Source of the DNA: Candidatus Methylomirabilis sp.
Lineage (GTDB): Bacteria; DYJV01
Length of the DNA: 42,650 nucleotides
NCBI GenBank assembly: GCA_020722945.1
Contig: DYJV01000013.1
Location: 1 to 42,650, forward strand
Direction: 5' to 3'
Numbering within the stretch: position 1 is the first letter of the stretch; each line of letters starts with the position of its first letter. The notes below the pieces were generated by a model that saw only the letters and a list, made by a program, of their open reading frames with translations, had not been told where the DNA came from and ran no database searches. Below, one piece after another: positions 36,216 to 42,650 of the stretch. Both the position numbers and the translations under genes were made by a program.

Positions 36216-39200
36216 ATGCCAAATTTTATAACAAATAACGAAACCAGAGACCTGAAAAAGCGTTTAATTGAACTTATTGGAAAAAGTGAAGAATTAAAAT
36301 TCTTGGTTGGATTTTTTTATTTTTCTGGAATTAGAGAACTATATGAAGGATTAAAAGCTAACCCCAACACAATCACTAAAGTGCTGGTTGGTTTAAATGT
36401 TGATCGGGCAAATTTTGGTTTAATCGAATTTTCAGATCGGGAGCAATTATCAGATGAAGAAAAAACATATAAATTTTTTGAATCGATCAAAAAGTCATTG
36501 AATAATGAAAATTTTGATACAAAAGAATTTTATGAGCAAGTAAAATTTTTTCTTGAGTTAATCCAAAAAGATAAACTTATTATTAGAAAAGCATATAAAC
36601 CAAATCACGCGAAGCTGTACCTCTTTAAACTTGATCAAAGTCAGGTTGGTAAAAAAAATTTATTTATTACCGGTTCGAGCAATCTTACTAAAGCAGGGCT
36701 TTCTACTCAGAATGAATTTAATGTGGAAATTGGAGATTATGGTTTTGAAGATGCGGATCAATATTTTGATGAACTCTGGCAGGAAGCAGTAAAAATAACT
36801 GAATTGGATTACATAAAAAAGAAGCTTATTCAAGTGATTGAAACAGAAACCTTGGTCAAGGATATTTCCCCATTTGAAGCTTTTTGTTTGGTTTTGAAAA
36901 CATATCTTGATTCATTTGAACAAAAAGAAATCGGCGATTCTTTAATTAAGACTCTGGAAGAAAATAACTATAAACCCTACCAATACCAATTGGATGCGGT
37001 TAAACAATCATTAGCGATCATGGAAAATAATAATGGAGTTATAGTGGCTGATGTGGTAGGTTTGGGTAAAACCATTATTGCTTGTGCTATTGCCAAGCAA
37101 TTAAAAAAACGTGGTGTGATAATATGTCCGCCCGGTCTTGTTGGTGATAGAAGTAAAAATTCTGGCTGGAAAAAATACACGGAAGAGTTTAGACTTTACG
37201 ACTACGAGGTTCGTTCTTCGGGCGACCTTAAAAATACATTGGAATTTGTTAATAAAGCCAAAGATATTGAGGTCATAATAGTTGATGAAGCGCACCGCTT
37301 TAGAAACCAAGACACGAAAGACTATGAACTTTTAAAGAACATCTGTCGGGGAAAGCAAGTTATCCTATTAACCGCTACGCCTTTTAACAATCGTCCAGGT
37401 GATATTTTAGCTCTTTTAAAACTTTTTATAACACCCAAGAAATCTTCAATTACATTAGAAAACAATTTGGTTGATCAATTTAAAGGTTTCAAAGGAATGT
37501 TTGACAGGCTCGGATATATTAAAAAATATTGGAACTCACCTGATAATGCCAAACGAAATAAAGCTACAAATTATTACAAAGCATTATTCGGAGAAGATGT
37601 TGTTGATCTAAAGAAAGTTGCCACAAGAGCCCGCTATTTAGCCAAGCAGATTAGAAATGTTATTGAGCCGGTAACTATCAGGCGCAATAGACTTGATTTG
37701 CAAAATAATCCTTATTATAAGAATGAAGTGAAAGAGCTTTCGAAAGTCGTTAATCCCAAAGAATGGTTTTTTGAATTAAACAAAGAACAATCTGATTTCT
37801 ATACCACAATTATTGAAAGTTATTTTGGCGAGCCGGAAGAAGGAGGTCGATTTAAAGGAGCAATTTATAGACCGTTTGAGTATGAAAAAGGCATTAAAGA
37901 AAAAATGAGCGAAGATGATAATCGCCAATTTATCCAACAGAGAAACTTATTTGATTTCATGAGGCGCTTGCTGGTCAAACGTTTTGAAAGTTCTTTTGGT
38001 TCATTTGAACAGAGCATTAAAAATTTCAAGAAAATTACAGAAAATAGCCAAAAATTCATTCAGAAAACCGGTGAGTATATTTTAGATCGTGGCCTTTTAG
38101 AAAAAATTTATGAATTGGACGCCGATGAGATTGAAAAATATCTTCTTGAATATGAAGAAAAAATTAAACAGGGGGAATATCCCAAAAATCACAAACGATA
38201 TAAATTAAGTGTATTCAAACACAAAGATGATTTTCTTAGGGACATTGAATCCGATTTAAAATTGTTTGACGAAATATTATCAGAACTTGAAAAATTAGAT
38301 CTTATAAAAAATGATCCTAAAACAGATTGTTTATTAGAACACCTCAAAAAAGAATTAGCTAAAAAACCAAACAAAGGCGAGCCAAAAAGAAAACTCATAA
38401 TTTTTTCGGAATATGTTGATACTGTGAAATATCTCGAAAAAGCGCTGGAAAATGTATATAAAGATAGAGTTTTGGTAGTGTCCGGTGACTTATCAGCAAC
38501 AAAAATCAATCAAATCAATAAAAATTTTGACGCCTCATACGAAGATCAGGAGAACGAATTTGATATTTTATTATCATCTGACAAAATTTCAGAAGGTTTT
38601 AACTTAAATAGAGGCGGAATGGTTATAAACTATGATATTCCATGGAATCCGGTTCGGGTAATTCAGAGGCTTGGTCGTATCAATCGTATTAGTAAAAAAG
38701 TATTTAATGAGCTTTATATTGTAAATTTCTTCCCAACTGAACAAGGTGCCGAGTTAGTACAATCTCGTCAAATTGCCGCCAATAAAATGTTTTTAATCCA
38801 CAACACTTTGGGTGAGGATTCAAAGATTTTTGATATTGACGAAGAACCGACACCAGCCGGACTATTCAACCGAATTCAGCAAAACCCTGACGATCAAGAA
38901 GAAGAAAGCTTTTATACCAAAGCATTTAAACACTATTTGAAAATAAAAAAAGATAATCCAGAATTAATTGCCAACCTAAAAAACTATCCACCACGAATCA
39001 AGGTAGCAAAAAGCTATACAGAAAATGAACTCTTGGTTTTTTTCAAAAAAGGAAGACTCTATGTCAGTGGAGCAAAAACTGACACAAAAAAAATTGAAGC
39101 ATTCCAAACCAATTTTGAAGATGTCTTTGAAAAGATTGTCTGTGAGCCGGATGAAAAGGCACAAAACTGGAACACCGACCAATTTTGGCTTGTCTACGAC

Positions 39201-39536
39201 GCAATCCGAGCTTATAAAGATTTTCGTTTGGGGCAGGTTAGCGAACAAAGTTTAGAACAAAAAGCTCTTAATAATCTTGATTTTCTAATCGCAAATAAAG
39301 AAGAATCACTTATGCCTCACAAAGATTTCTTGAGGATGTTAAAAGAAGATATTTTGTCATATGGCACTTTGGCGGATTATACCTTGCGTCGAATTGCTGG
39401 TTTCAAAGAGAATTATGTTAAAGATATAGCATATTTAAAGAATGAACTGGGCGAAGATTATTTAATCAAAGAAAAGAACCGCCAAAAAGAACAGAAAAAA
39501 GAAATTATTATTGCTATTGAGAATAAAATACTATGA
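36216..39536 (+). CDS. PLD-like nuclease/SNF2-type helicase fusion, probable restriction or defence protein
   Basis: 1106 residues. The N-terminal ~200 residues form a phospholipase-D-like domain with one HxK half-site (HAKLYLF, His131/Lys133) and ITGSSNLTKAG at 151-161; PLD nucleases usually pair two such halves, so a dimer is expected. A superfamily 2 helicase follows: ADVVGLGKTI (Lys285), VDEAH (356-360), LLTATPF (384-390), then SEYVDTVKYLEKAL, SDKISEGFNLNR near 788 and VIQRLGRINR near 816. The C-terminal ~250 residues are unassigned. Its stop overlaps the methyltransferase start (ATGA). CGN arginine codons are much more frequent than in the flanking core genes, suggesting transfer. Confidence 0.85.
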   Translation: MPNFITNNETRDLKKRLIELIGKSEELKFLVGFFYFSGIRELYEGLKANPNTITKVLVGLNVDRANFGLIEFSDREQLSDEEKTYKFFESIKKSLNNENFDTKEFYEQVKFFLELIQKDKLIIRKAYKPNHAKLYLFKLDQSQVGKKNLFITGSSNLTKAGLSTQNEFNVEIGDYGFEDADQYFDELWQEAVKITELDYIKKKLIQVIETETLVKDISPFEAFCLVLKTYLDSFEQKEIGDSLIKTLEENNYKPYQYQLDAVKQSLAIMENNNGVIVADVVGLGKTIIACAIAKQLKKRGVIICPPGLVGDRSKNSGWKKYTEEFRLYDYEVRSSGDLKNTLEFVNKAKDIEVIIVDEAHRFRNQDTKDYELLKNICRGKQVILLTATPFNNRPGDILALLKLFITPKKSSITLENNLVDQFKGFKGMFDRLGYIKKYWNSPDNAKRNKATNYYKALFGEDVVDLKKVATRARYLAKQIRNVIEPVTIRRNRLDLQNNPYYKNEVKELSKVVNPKEWFFELNKEQSDFYTTIIESYFGEPEEGGRFKGAIYRPFEYEKGIKEKMSEDDNRQFIQQRNLFDFMRRLLVKRFESSFGSFEQSIKNFKKITENSQKFIQKTGEYILDRGLLEKIYELDADEIEKYLLEYEEKIKQGEYPKNHKRYKLSVFKHKDDFLRDIESDLKLFDEILSELEKLDLIKNDPKTDCLLEHLKKELAKKPNKGEPKRKLIIFSEYVDTVKYLEKALENVYKDRVLVVSGDLSATKINQINKNFDASYEDQENEFDILLSSDKISEGFNLNRGGMVINYDIPWNPVRVIQRLGRINRISKKVFNELYIVNFFPTEQGAELVQSRQIAANKMFLIHNTLGEDSKIFDIDEEPTPAGLFNRIQQNPDDQEEESFYTKAFKHYLKIKKDNPELIANLKNYPPRIKVAKSYTENELLVFFKKGRLYVSGAKTDTKKIEAFQTNFEDVFEKIVCEPDEKAQNWNTDQFWLVYDAIRAYKDFRLGQVSEQSLEQKALNNLDFLIANKEESLMPHKDFLRMLKEDILSYGTLADYTLRRIAGFKENYVKDIAYLKNELGEDYLIKEKNRQKEQKKEIIIAIENKIL

Positions 39537-42500
39537 GCAAAACCAAGCAAATACCGGATTTAATAATCAATGATTTTTCAACTGAAAAATTCAATGTTTT
39601 TTTCCGCAGAAGAACGCAAGGTAAATTTCGTGAAATAAATCAAAGCTATCAGCAATATGATGATAGTGATTTTAAAAATGGCTTAAAATTAGGTGAAGCT
39701 GAATTTGGTGATGGAAAACTTATTGTCTGCTCTTTTGAAGTGCAGAAAAGTCTTTCAGAAAGAAGTGGTAAAAAAGCCCAATATGAGAAAGCTAAAAGCA
39801 TTTTAAAGTCAATAGAAAATCAAGTCTATTCTGCCGGAATTTTTGTTTTTTATGATAAAAGTGGCAATTTTCGCTTTTCTCTCGTTTATCCCGAAAGCAT
39901 AGGCAATAGAAGGCAATGGAATAATTTTAAAAGATTTACTTATTTTGTCAGCCAAGAATTAACCAATAAAACTTTTTTGCAACGAATTGTTGACGGCGAT
40001 TTTCCCACATTTGCCAAGATCAAAGAGGCATTTTCGGTAGAAAAAGTCACCAAAGAATTTTATCAGGATATTGCCAACTGGTATTTTTGGGCAGTTTCAC
40101 ATTGCAGTTTCCCCAAAGACGCAGAAACAGAAGAAAACGGCAGAAATATCGCAGTTATTCGCTTGATCACCAGAATGATTTTTATCTGGTTTATGCGAGA
40201 GCGTGGGCTTATTAATAAAGATTTGTTTGAAAAACAACAAATAGAGAATATTTTAAAAAATTTAAACAATGATGAATCAAGCTATTACACTGCGATTTTA
40301 CAAAACTTGTTTTTTGCGACATTAAGCACCAAAAAAGAAGAAAGACAATTTGGTAGTGAGATAAGAGGGCACAAAGGCTATAACCCCGACTTTGGCAATC
40401 AATATGTTTTTCGTTATCAGGAAATGTTTAAAAATCCGGAAAATATCAAAGACTATTTTGGCGATATTCCTTTTTTAAACGGAGGGATTTTTGAATGTCT
40501 GGATGACAAGAAAAATGGAATTATTATTGACGGATTTTCACGAACAAAGAAAAACCAACCGGAAGTCCCTAATCTGCTATTTTTCGGTGCAGACAAAAAG
40601 GTTGATTTAAATAAAGCTTACGGTACCAAAAATAAAACATATAAAGTGCGAGGACTTTTAGATATTTTGTCATCTTTCAATTTCACGATTGATGAAAACT
40701 CGCCGGATGATGCGGATATAGCACTTGATCCGGAGCTATTGGGTAGAGTATTTGAAAACTTGCTTGCCAGCTTCAATCCGGAAACCTCCACAACAGCTCG
40801 CAAAGCCACTGGCAGTTATTACACACCGCGCGAGATTGTTGATTATATGGTCTCTGAATCATTGAAAGCATATTTCAAAACGCATCTATCTGATATTGAA
40901 AAAATTGATGAAAAACTGGAACAGCTTTTTGGGAGTGAATCTTCAGCCAATCCTTTTGATGAAAGTGAGTCCAAAAGACTGGTTGAGTTGATTGAAAGTG
41001 TCAAGATTGTGGATCCTGCAGTCGGATCCGGTGCTTTTCCAATGGGTGCTTTAAATAAACTGGTGTTTATCCTGAACAAAGTTGATCCGGGAAATAAATT
41101 ATGGAAAGAAGCACAGTTAAAAGCGGTTGATGCCATACCTGACCCAAGTGCCAGAAGAATGGCAAAAGAGCGGATTGAAGAGTTTTTTGAAGGAAAAAAT
41201 GCTGATTACGGCAGAAAGCTTTATCTTATCCAGCGGTGTATTTATGGTGTGGATATTCAGCAAATTGCTGTTGAAATTGCTAAACTTAGGTTTTTTATCT
41301 CGCTTTTGGTTGATGAAAAAATAGATAAAGAAAAAGATAACTGGGGTATTGAACCGCTCCCCAATCTTGATTTCAAAATTATGCAGGGCAATAGCCTGAT
41401 TTCTGAATTTCTGGGGATTGATTTTGATAATGACAGCGAAGTAAAAAGGGGTTGCAACCCTTTTTTACTGATAGATCAGGATGATGATTCACTTATTAAG
41501 GAATTTGAACAGAAGAAAATAGATTTTCAAAACGAGGCGGATAAAGATAAAAAATCCAAGCTCAAGCAGGAAGTGGAAGATTTGATGATTCGGATTTTTG
41601 AAACCAAAGTCAAAAAACAAAAAGGCGATTATTTCAGGCAGTTAGAAGAAATTGAAAGTAAATATTCCGCTTTACCCAATCAAAAACAACGGGAAGAGAT
41701 TATCGCACAAGAAAAACAAAAACTCTCCAAAAAATCCATCTTTGATCTGGAAAATATAGAAAAACAACTGCGGGAATTTGTAAGCAAAAAGAAAACTCGA
41801 CCATTTTTCCCTTGGAAGCTCTATTTTGCGGAGGTGTTTGAGAAAAAAGTAATTGAAAAAAACTGGAAAGCCTATCACATTACTTGGGTTACTCATAATA
41901 GTCGAGTAAGTGAACGAATGGTGGAATATAAAGTAAAAACAGGAGAACCTATAGTCTTAAATGATGATGAAGAGGTTGAAGTAGCTAAGTATTTATCTCA
42001 AATTATTATCGAAGATAATTTGAGAGTGGTGAGATTTAATATTTGCAGGGATCATGTGCATATGTTTTTAGTTTGTGAAGAAAAAGATAGAGACAATATA
42101 GTAAGGAAACTTAAGGGAAAGACAACTCAGCTTTACAAACAAAATCATAATATCTCTGACGAGTTTCATTTGTGGGCACAAAAGTATAGTGCGACATGGA
42201 TTGAAAGCGATGAGCAATTTGCGAATACAATAGAATATATCAAAAATAATCGGTATAAGCACAACCTTCCGTTCAACAAGGGGTTGCAACCCCTTGTTGA
42301 AAGGTGCAAGACCCCATTGGAACACCTTTTTGATCCCATCGTGGAAAAAGGTGGTTTTGATATTGTGATTGGAAACCCGCCGTATATTCAACTACAAAAA
42401 GATGAAGGTCAATTGGCTAAACTTTACCAACCCCAAAATTACGAAACCTTTGCCCACACAGGTGATATTTACACCCTTTTTTACGAAAAAGGCATAAATT

Positions 42501-42650
42501 TATTAAAGGATAAAGGACTTCTTACTTTTATCACTTCCAACAAGTGGATGCGAGCCGGTTATGGCGAAAAACTACGAAATTATTTTTTACGATTTAATCC
42601 AAAATTGCTGATTGATTTAGGTCCCGGTGTTTTTGAATCAGCAACTGTTG
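39533..42650 (+). CDS. Eco57I-type N6-adenine DNA methyltransferase with an inserted Y1 transposase domain (partial)
   Basis: Open from the ATG at 39533 to the window edge (1039 codons, unfinished). Residues 1-150 are an uncharacterised N-terminal domain; 200-440 are helical. The methyltransferase part shows ATGSYYTPREIVDYMV, SAM motif I VDPAVGSGAFPMG (493-505), IYGVDIQQIAVEIAKLR, and motif IV VIGNPPYIQLQ (NPPY 948-951), which marks an adenine-specific enzyme. Between FFPWKLYFAEVFE and EKGGFDIVIG, where relatives are contiguous, about 160 foreign residues encode a Y1/HUH domain. Coupled to the helicase upstream. It probably protects host DNA or forms a combined restriction system; a nuclease or specificity domain may lie beyond the edge. 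Confidence 0.85.
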   Translation, partial: MSKTKQIPDLIINDFSTEKFNVFFRRRTQGKFREINQSYQQYDDSDFKNGLKLGEAEFGDGKLIVCSFEVQKSLSERSGKKAQYEKAKSILKSIENQVYSAGIFVFYDKSGNFRFSLVYPESIGNRRQWNNFKRFTYFVSQELTNKTFLQRIVDGDFPTFAKIKEAFSVEKVTKEFYQDIANWYFWAVSHCSFPKDAETEENGRNIAVIRLITRMIFIWFMRERGLINKDLFEKQQIENILKNLNNDESSYYTAILQNLFFATLSTKKEERQFGSEIRGHKGYNPDFGNQYVFRYQEMFKNPENIKDYFGDIPFLNGGIFECLDDKKNGIIIDGFSRTKKNQPEVPNLLFFGADKKVDLNKAYGTKNKTYKVRGLLDILSSFNFTIDENSPDDADIALDPELLGRVFENLLASFNPETSTTARKATGSYYTPREIVDYMVSESLKAYFKTHLSDIEKIDEKLEQLFGSESSANPFDESESKRLVELIESVKIVDPAVGSGAFPMGALNKLVFILNKVDPGNKLWKEAQLKAVDAIPDPSARRMAKERIEEFFEGKNADYGRKLYLIQRCIYGVDIQQIAVEIAKLRFFISLLVDEKIDKEKDNWGIEPLPNLDFKIMQGNSLISEFLGIDFDNDSEVKRGCNPFLLIDQDDDSLIKEFEQKKIDFQNEADKDKKSKLKQEVEDLMIRIFETKVKKQKGDYFRQLEEIESKYSALPNQKQREEIIAQEKQKLSKKSIFDLENIEKQLREFVSKKKTRPFFPWKLYFAEVFEKKVIEKNWKAYHITWVTHNSRVSERMVEYKVKTGEPIVLNDDEEVEVAKYLSQIIIEDNLRVVRFNICRDHVHMFLVCEEKDRDNIVRKLKGKTTQLYKQNHNISDEFHLWAQKYSATWIESDEQFANTIEYIKNNRYKHNLPFNKGLQPLVERCKTPLEHLFDPIVEKGGFDIVIGNPPYIQLQKDEGQLAKLYQPQNYETFAHTGDIYTLFYEKGINLLKDKGLLTFITSNKWMRAGYGEKLRNYFLRFNPKLLIDLGPGVFESATV
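41441..41468. repeat. 28-bp palindrome, translated, sister of 42272-42301
   Basis: GTAAAAAGGGG-TTGCAA-CCC then TTTTTTAC: 13 of 14 positions pair and the odd one is G-T. It falls exactly on codon boundaries and is read as VKRGCNPFL within the methyltransferase. The core GGGGTTGCAACCC is shared with the second palindrome. It lies in a hydrophilic linker after GIDFDNDSE. Confidence 0.8.
41852..42340 (+). mobile_element. In-frame Y1 (HUH) REP-associated/IS200-like transposase domain
   Basis: Inside the methyltransferase frame, residues ~777-905 read as a complete Y1 transposase domain: WKAYHITWVTHNSR, then the HUH motif in CRDHVHMFLV (His841, His843), VRKLKGKTTQLYK, and WAQKYSATWI with the likely nucleophile Tyr885, ending IEYIKNNRYKHN. 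All expected catalytic residues are present. It is followed by LPFNKGLQPLVE, encoded by a perfect palindrome, and then rejoins KGGFDIVIGNPPY. Boundaries are estimated from where the methyltransferase pattern stops and resumes. No stop or frameshift is present. Confidence 0.82.
42272..42301. repeat. Perfect 30-bp palindrome at the 3' part of the Y1 insert
   Basis: The left half is TTCAACAAGGGGTTG (42272-42286) and the right half is its exact reverse complement (42287-42301). It falls on codon boundaries and is translated as FNKGLQPLVE. It shares the GGGGTTGCAACCC core with 41441-41468. Such palindromes are the known substrates of REP-associated Y1 transposases. Confidence 0.88.

Follow-up and report, generated by a model that had tools for sequence, protein, structure and literature searches.

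The window analysed here is the whole of contig DYJV01000013.1 (42,650 nucleotides) from Candidatus Methylomirabilis sp., whose genome is a 2.5 Mb draft in 184 contigs with an estimated contamination of 5.8%. At the end of this contig is a two-gene defence-type operon, made up of a partner gene and a methyltransferase gene (Table 1), which the housekeeping genes lptD, folC, hslU, clpA, lepA, and ahbD precede. The 3' end of the methyltransferase gene is missing, with the frame open up to the contig end and the target-recognition C-terminus lying beyond it. The part that we have shows the features of a type IIG, Eco57I-type enzyme, with motifs I and IV and the Eco57I domain present, and directly before motif IV it contains an inserted HUH/Y1 domain.

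Table 1. Positions of the genes, motifs, and palindromes at the end of the window.
Feature	Position	Strand	Remarks
Partner gene, PLD-like and SNF2 helicase	36216..39536	+	4-nt overlap with methyltransferase start
Type IIG/PglX-like adenine DNA methyltransferase ORF	39533..42649	+	1039 aa shown; Pfam Eco57I and MmeI_Mtase
Methyltransferase motif I, DPAVGSGAFPMG	41012..41047	+	Intact; invariant columns in methyltransferase alignment A4
Second palindrome copy, SEVKRGCNPFLL	41440..41469	+	In frame in methyltransferase, length-variable stretch
HUH/Y1 (TnpA_Y1) insert	41846..42349	+	168 aa, aa 772-939; in frame; own start/stop codon not used
HUH motif DHVHM, His841 and His843	42050..42064	+	D-H-x-H invariant in insert alignment A3
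Catalytic Tyr902, EYIKNN helix	42236..42238	+	Invariant; Y131 of the insert in alignment A3
36-nt palindrome in insert, CCGTTCAACAAGGGGTTG/CAACCCCTTGTTGAAAGG	42269..42304	+	Read as LPFNKGLQPLVER
Motif IV block, GGFDIVIGNPPY	42350..42385	+	Adjoins right end of insert; recurrent insertion site

The insert matches the Pfam family Y1_Tnp (PF01797) with an E-value of 1.6e-12 and 48.1 bits against a curated cut-off of 23, and it is the only Y1_Tnp domain in the whole source genome. When aligned to insert-free homologues (L054, L058, L059, L106, L100, L123, and L098), the window ORF has a single clean gap, in which FFPWKLYFAEVFEK is followed by the 168 inserted residues and then by GGFDIVIGNPPY. The insert-free homologues that align on both sides come from Scalindua, Ignavibacteriae, Dehalococcoidia, and other genomes. 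A preliminary description of the window had claimed a Y1/HUH domain carried in frame within the methyltransferase, and the Pfam match, the open ORF, and the clean gap bear this out. Its borders of 41852-42340 were nearly right, but the alignment fixes the exact ones slightly further out on both sides. The GC content is 0.35 in both the insert and the flank, and when the insert DNA was resampled 20,000 times with a first-order model, that frame never stayed open (0/20,000).

The HUH motif and the single tyrosine on a C-terminal helix, by which TnpA_Y1 proteins are recognized, are both present. His841 and His843 had been correctly identified as the HUH residues, but Tyr885, which had been proposed as catalytic, is part of LWAQKY and most relatives have F instead, and the invariant tyrosine is Tyr902. 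The insert may still be an active nuclease, given that these residues are retained. It scores below the cut-offs of two equivalog models, with 41.9 bits against 80 for RAYTs (NF047646) and 40.7 bits against 55 for IS200/IS605 transposases (NF033573). We dropped an assignment to the RAYTs because the GT[AG]G foot of REPs is missing, with no GTAG or CTAC beside either of the two window palindromes. Inteins begin with Cys, Ser, or Thr, end with His-Asn, and are followed by Cys, Ser, or Thr. Our insert begins with K, ends with EK, and is followed by G, and we rejected an intein on these grounds, which agrees with the initial remark that no intein-type splice residues are visible.

Direct searches of genome contigs, viral contigs (with the single sequence and with an alignment), plasmids, and phages found no relatives of the insert, and a search of 111 genomes of Planctomycetota, the phylum of the insert-free L106, gave none either. 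A search profile of two rows, the window insert and a standalone relative (L205), gave matches in 6 of 296 Bacteroidota genomes, and five of the six are in open frames of 767-1273 aa (L237-L241). All five of these are type IIG methyltransferases, with Eco57I, MmeI_Mtase, and TaqI_C domains in the four that were scanned, and in all of them the insert is found between '[E]F..VF/IM' and 'GGFDVV[IV]GNPPY', which is the window's own site. Across the window and these five enzymes, all six Y1 inserts stop directly before GGFD, and the D-H-x-H and the catalytic tyrosine are invariant across the inserts of alignment A3. This recurrence at a fixed site in unrelated hosts was not known when the window was first described.

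The segment is not native to all homologues, most of which lack it. In the family of G479, one of the filled families, seven methyltransferase orthologues that are 74-80% identical have an empty site. Query residues 2-552 and 718-1212 match contiguous DNA in the empty-site orthologues of G592, G620, and G494. At the empty junction, 'EFPDVFAN' is followed directly by GGFDVVIGNPPY. We saw no common target motif by eye at the insert borders, including any short one at the left border. Tolerance of the insert is not universal, since the filled copy L239 is interrupted by a stop a little way past motif IV. In the Bacteroidetes homologue L113, about 50 extra residues precede GFDIVIGNPPY in the same loop.

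The palindrome reported in the initial description is real, and the window insert's AACAAGGGGTTGCAACCCCTTGTT is in frame, coding NKGLQPLV. The stretch that holds the second copy is shorter in L054 and L059. These two copies, both in the methyltransferase gene, are the only ones in the 2.5-Mb genome. IS200/IS605 elements have a subterminal hairpin near each end; here one hairpin lies ~45 nt from the right end of the insert, none is clear at the left, and the second copy is ~380 nt upstream in the host. We considered and rejected the two palindromes as the ends of a larger element, since 41470-41845 is ordinary methyltransferase sequence common to L054, L058, and L059. At the palindrome position, the relatives have AACAAGGAGTTGCAACTCCTTGTC (L237-L239), AACAAGGGGTTTAAACCCCTTGTT (L240, where it occurs twice), and AACAAGGGGACGTGTCCCCTTGTC (the standalone L205), and in L238 and L239 there is an extra copy just outside the methyltransferase frame. 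Three of the ten stem pairs are changed on both sides with pairing kept, and 2 of 500 shuffles scored as high; because the set consists of five sequences, we regard this as suggestive of pairing maintained through two-sided changes. For IS608 and TnpA_REP, the hairpin is the established substrate of the protein, and by analogy the palindromic hairpin would be the substrate of the window Y1 protein. The 24-nt palindrome type AACAAGGGGTTGCAACCCCTTGTT is also found in 22 viral contig stretches (L180-L201), some of them in frame at protein ends (NKGLQPLVQ), and searches of the viral contigs bearing it did not find Y1 relatives.

AlphaFold2, run with an alignment of 44 methyltransferases, modelled the host part well. 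VIA-align matched the host model to CamA (Z 22.7, 2.9 Å over 255 residues, in an aligned range that spans the insert), with further fits to BrxX, MmeI, and BsaXI, and the Foldseek matches of the full host model also include the IS608 transposase. The single-sequence model of the insert alone has low confidence (mean pLDDT 47). Its strands and helices follow the Y1 order (beta-alpha-beta-beta-alpha-beta-alpha), and Foldseek ranks IS200/IS605 transposases at the top, with a probability of 1.00 to the IS608, ISDra2, and DR_0177 transposases. Loss of the HUH/Tyr fold on modelling had been raised as a possible objection, but the predicted Y1 topology survives; given the low confidence for the insert, the fold is supportive and not independent proof.

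The distribution of filled sites over the host tree takes five changes to explain, and well-supported branches force at least three of them; the window host groups with the empty L106 and L059 at 100/100. The inserts of the window and L237 are 49% identical and their hosts 35%, while for L237 and L240 the inserts are 46% identical and the hosts 66%. An AU test on the inserts rejected the host clade (p=0.0036); without the long-branched L241, the four-row clade L237-L240 was not rejected (p=0.068). In the insert tree the standalone L205 nests with the embedded L240 at 92/94. Because the host and insert histories disagree, we infer that the site has been filled repeatedly. The conserved site thus exists in occupied and empty forms, and the element has a history independent of its host, as expected of a homing element.

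Between filled orthologues the dN/dS of the insert is 0.067-0.106, close to that of the flank, and by this measure the insert is under purifying selection. The dS of the insert is lower than that of the flank (1.07 vs 2.53 and 0.10 vs 0.44), and since in a sliding comparison the left neighbour of the insert in L238 and L239 is also partly to fairly similar, ordinary homologous exchange could be the source of this difference. In the same comparison, orthologues have exchanged everything that follows motif IV. In L237-L239 and L246-L251, the C-terminal (target-recognition) halves are swapped at GGFDVVIGNPPY, with or without the insert, and the N-terminal halves are 74-83% identical. Recombination at motif IV is general, given that it is seen in filled and empty copies alike; it may spread the insert among members of one family, but it would not readily account for a jump between hosts that are only 35% identical.

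Other nuclease domains are inserted in defence genes. In G028 (L226:1-270, the same as L039, G028:C93), a type IIG methyltransferase has a GIY-YIG nuclease domain in frame directly before KGGFDVVIANPPY, which is the same pre-motif-IV site, and the left border of the domain is lost at the contig end. A separate clade of RAYTs with GTAG-type REPs is found in frame within about ten restriction or defence genes, namely type IIG methyltransferases (L225, L215, and L115), DUF1156-type methylases (L217, L219, L220, L221, and L222), an HsdR (L216), and an SNF2 helicase (L218). The L029 and L115 RAYTs, which unlike the window element have the GTAG foot, are at other sites of the same enzyme family. At the one RAYT site shared by DUF1156 methylases, the inserts are 58, 62, and 52% identical and the hosts 56, 56, and 55%, and in a type IIG pair these values are 66% and 67%. 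This equal divergence at shared sites suggests long co-inheritance of the RAYT clade and its hosts. By contrast, of the roughly 150 Y1_Tnp matches with the best scores in these 386 genomes, none lies in an open frame longer than 389 aa, and we judged a long open RAYT frame in L223 to be spurious. In L215 (2363-4813) the RAYT is open, while the host methyltransferase has no motif I and is frameshifted before NPPY; this loss of motif I and the interruption of L239 are evidence for harm to the host. The DUF1156 genes L217 and L219 contain further in-frame palindrome-like coded peptides (GARASRPH, SAGVPPA, and GGTPALP) outside the RAYT. DUF1156 methylases belong to BREX-related systems (PMC12839542), and neither an HUH domain nor a transposase is mentioned in the searched text of the 2026 survey of BREX.

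We consider it fairly probable that the insert represents a mobile HUH/Y1 element from a small subfamily of TnpA_Y1, placed in frame at a fixed position before motif IV and persisting without splicing. Such an element would reside in type IIG-like methyltransferases just before motif IV (GGFD-VIGNPPY). Because the frame is open through both ends, the host protein would not be broken but would gain a folded domain at its surface, splicing would be unneeded, and the methyltransferase may remain active. The element could arrive by cutting and joining single strands itself at its palindromic hairpin, or recombination across motif IV, where the DNA is strongly conserved, could bring it in, and it may be mobile today. 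Only an exact deletion would leave a good host gene, which would help the element to persist. Counting against this reading are the single clear hairpin, the lack of a left-border motif, the small number of genomes with matches, the stop in L239, and the AU result without L241.

The preliminary description had offered both an open-frame element resembling an intein without splicing and a domesticated nuclease in a defence protein. The former is better supported, because the insert is absent from close homologues, is found in unrelated hosts at an identical site, retains the HUH and Tyr residues, and has no splice residues. Domestication, in which the restriction enzyme would have taken the HUH nuclease into its own function and kept it for that use, for example as a single-strand cutter of phage DNA, is plausible if unlikely: strong purifying selection on the insert and the matched insert and host identities of the RAYT clade (DUF1156 and the type IIG pair) would fit it, but the patchy presence between 74-80% identical orthologues and the insert/host incongruence in the window's own subfamily do not, nor do the several kinds of embedded hosts, and an open RAYT in the decayed methyltransferase of L215 is the reverse of what a benefit to the host predicts.

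It is also conceivable, although we think it improbable, that Y1 insertion is random with no site preference, that only copies in the one permissive loop before motif IV survive in frame, and that exchange of C-terminal modules at motif IV spreads some of them. Loop length does vary among insert-free homologues, as in L113, an unrelated GIY-YIG domain occupies the same place, the C-terminal halves that follow motif IV are exchanged freely between orthologues whether or not an insert is present, and in enzymes of the same family the RAYTs of L029 and L115 are inserted at other sites. However, the ending of all six Y1 inserts directly before GGFD is tighter than loop tolerance alone needs, and the subfamily is almost confined to the pre-motif-IV site (5 of 6 Bacteroidota matches). 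The draft state of the genome, its estimated contamination, and a gene that runs off the contig end could point to an assembly or binning artefact, or the insert could be a dead relic without biology. An artefact is very unlikely because five more genomes have this arrangement on contigs that are 94-668 kb long, and the open frame, invariant catalytic residues, and matching GC content of insert and flank speak against both an artefact and a relic.

Extending the mobile-element reading, we suggest tentatively, and with some doubt, a new class of splice-less homing elements driven by an HUH single-strand nuclease, which would recognize motif IV as the most conserved codon block of restriction methyltransferases, insert in frame, spread between distant hosts, and keep the nuclease as a surface domain. 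The GIY-YIG domain at the same site and the GTAG-type RAYTs in DUF1156 methylases, HsdR, and helicases would share this lifestyle.

Parts of this picture are already known, namely REPs in frame in genes and in RAYT genes, and splice-less nuclease inserts in phage methylases. The ShiLan domain and a lone LAGLIDADG insertion in an actinobacteriophage DNA methylase (PMC11855218) are likewise nuclease inserts that are open in the host frame among highly conserved residues, have no splicing domain, and are patchy like homing elements, but the hosts are phage methylases, the ShiLan nuclease is an HNH read in another frame, and there is no HUH/Y1 domain or palindrome. In RAYT/TnpA_REP subclass 2.4, which is scattered over phyla including Bacteroidetes, REPs are inserted in frame in the coding sequence of their own HUH/Y1 protein (Quentin et al. 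2018, PMC6006769). There the RAYT gene is free-standing, whereas in the window a whole Y1 coding sequence is inside another gene, and the motifs differ (NH[IFV]H, WQ, and YIxNNP in subclass 2.4; DHVH, LWAQ, and YIKNN, with no GTAG foot, in the window). REPs and Rickettsia palindromic elements inside ORFs (Di Nocera et al. 2013, PMC3733652) are also palindromes in frame in genes for DNA-handling proteins that stay unbroken, but unlike the window insert they are short palindromes inserted alone, without a transposase. In the literature searched, we found no report of a Y1 domain inside a restriction methyltransferase, and the presence of a whole HUH/Y1 domain in frame at a recurrent site of these enzymes appears to be new.

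Like inteins with homing endonucleases, the insert is in frame at the host's most conserved codons, occupies the same site recurrently, and keeps its nuclease residues. Unlike them, it lacks splice residues and has the single-strand chemistry of an HUH protein instead of that of a double-strand homing endonuclease, and the domain stays in the protein. Inteins and introns persist in conserved genes by splicing out, and elements of the window type appear to gain the same persistence through tolerance. Their frequency in anti-phage enzymes raises the question of whether restriction-modification genes, which move between genomes, serve as their vehicles, and whether an HUH nuclease joined to a methyltransferase alters defence. 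RAYTs have long been suspected to be non-mobile house genes, and these inserts also raise the question of how RAYTs actually move. These questions can be tested with the pairs of filled and empty alleles, which are 74-80% identical.
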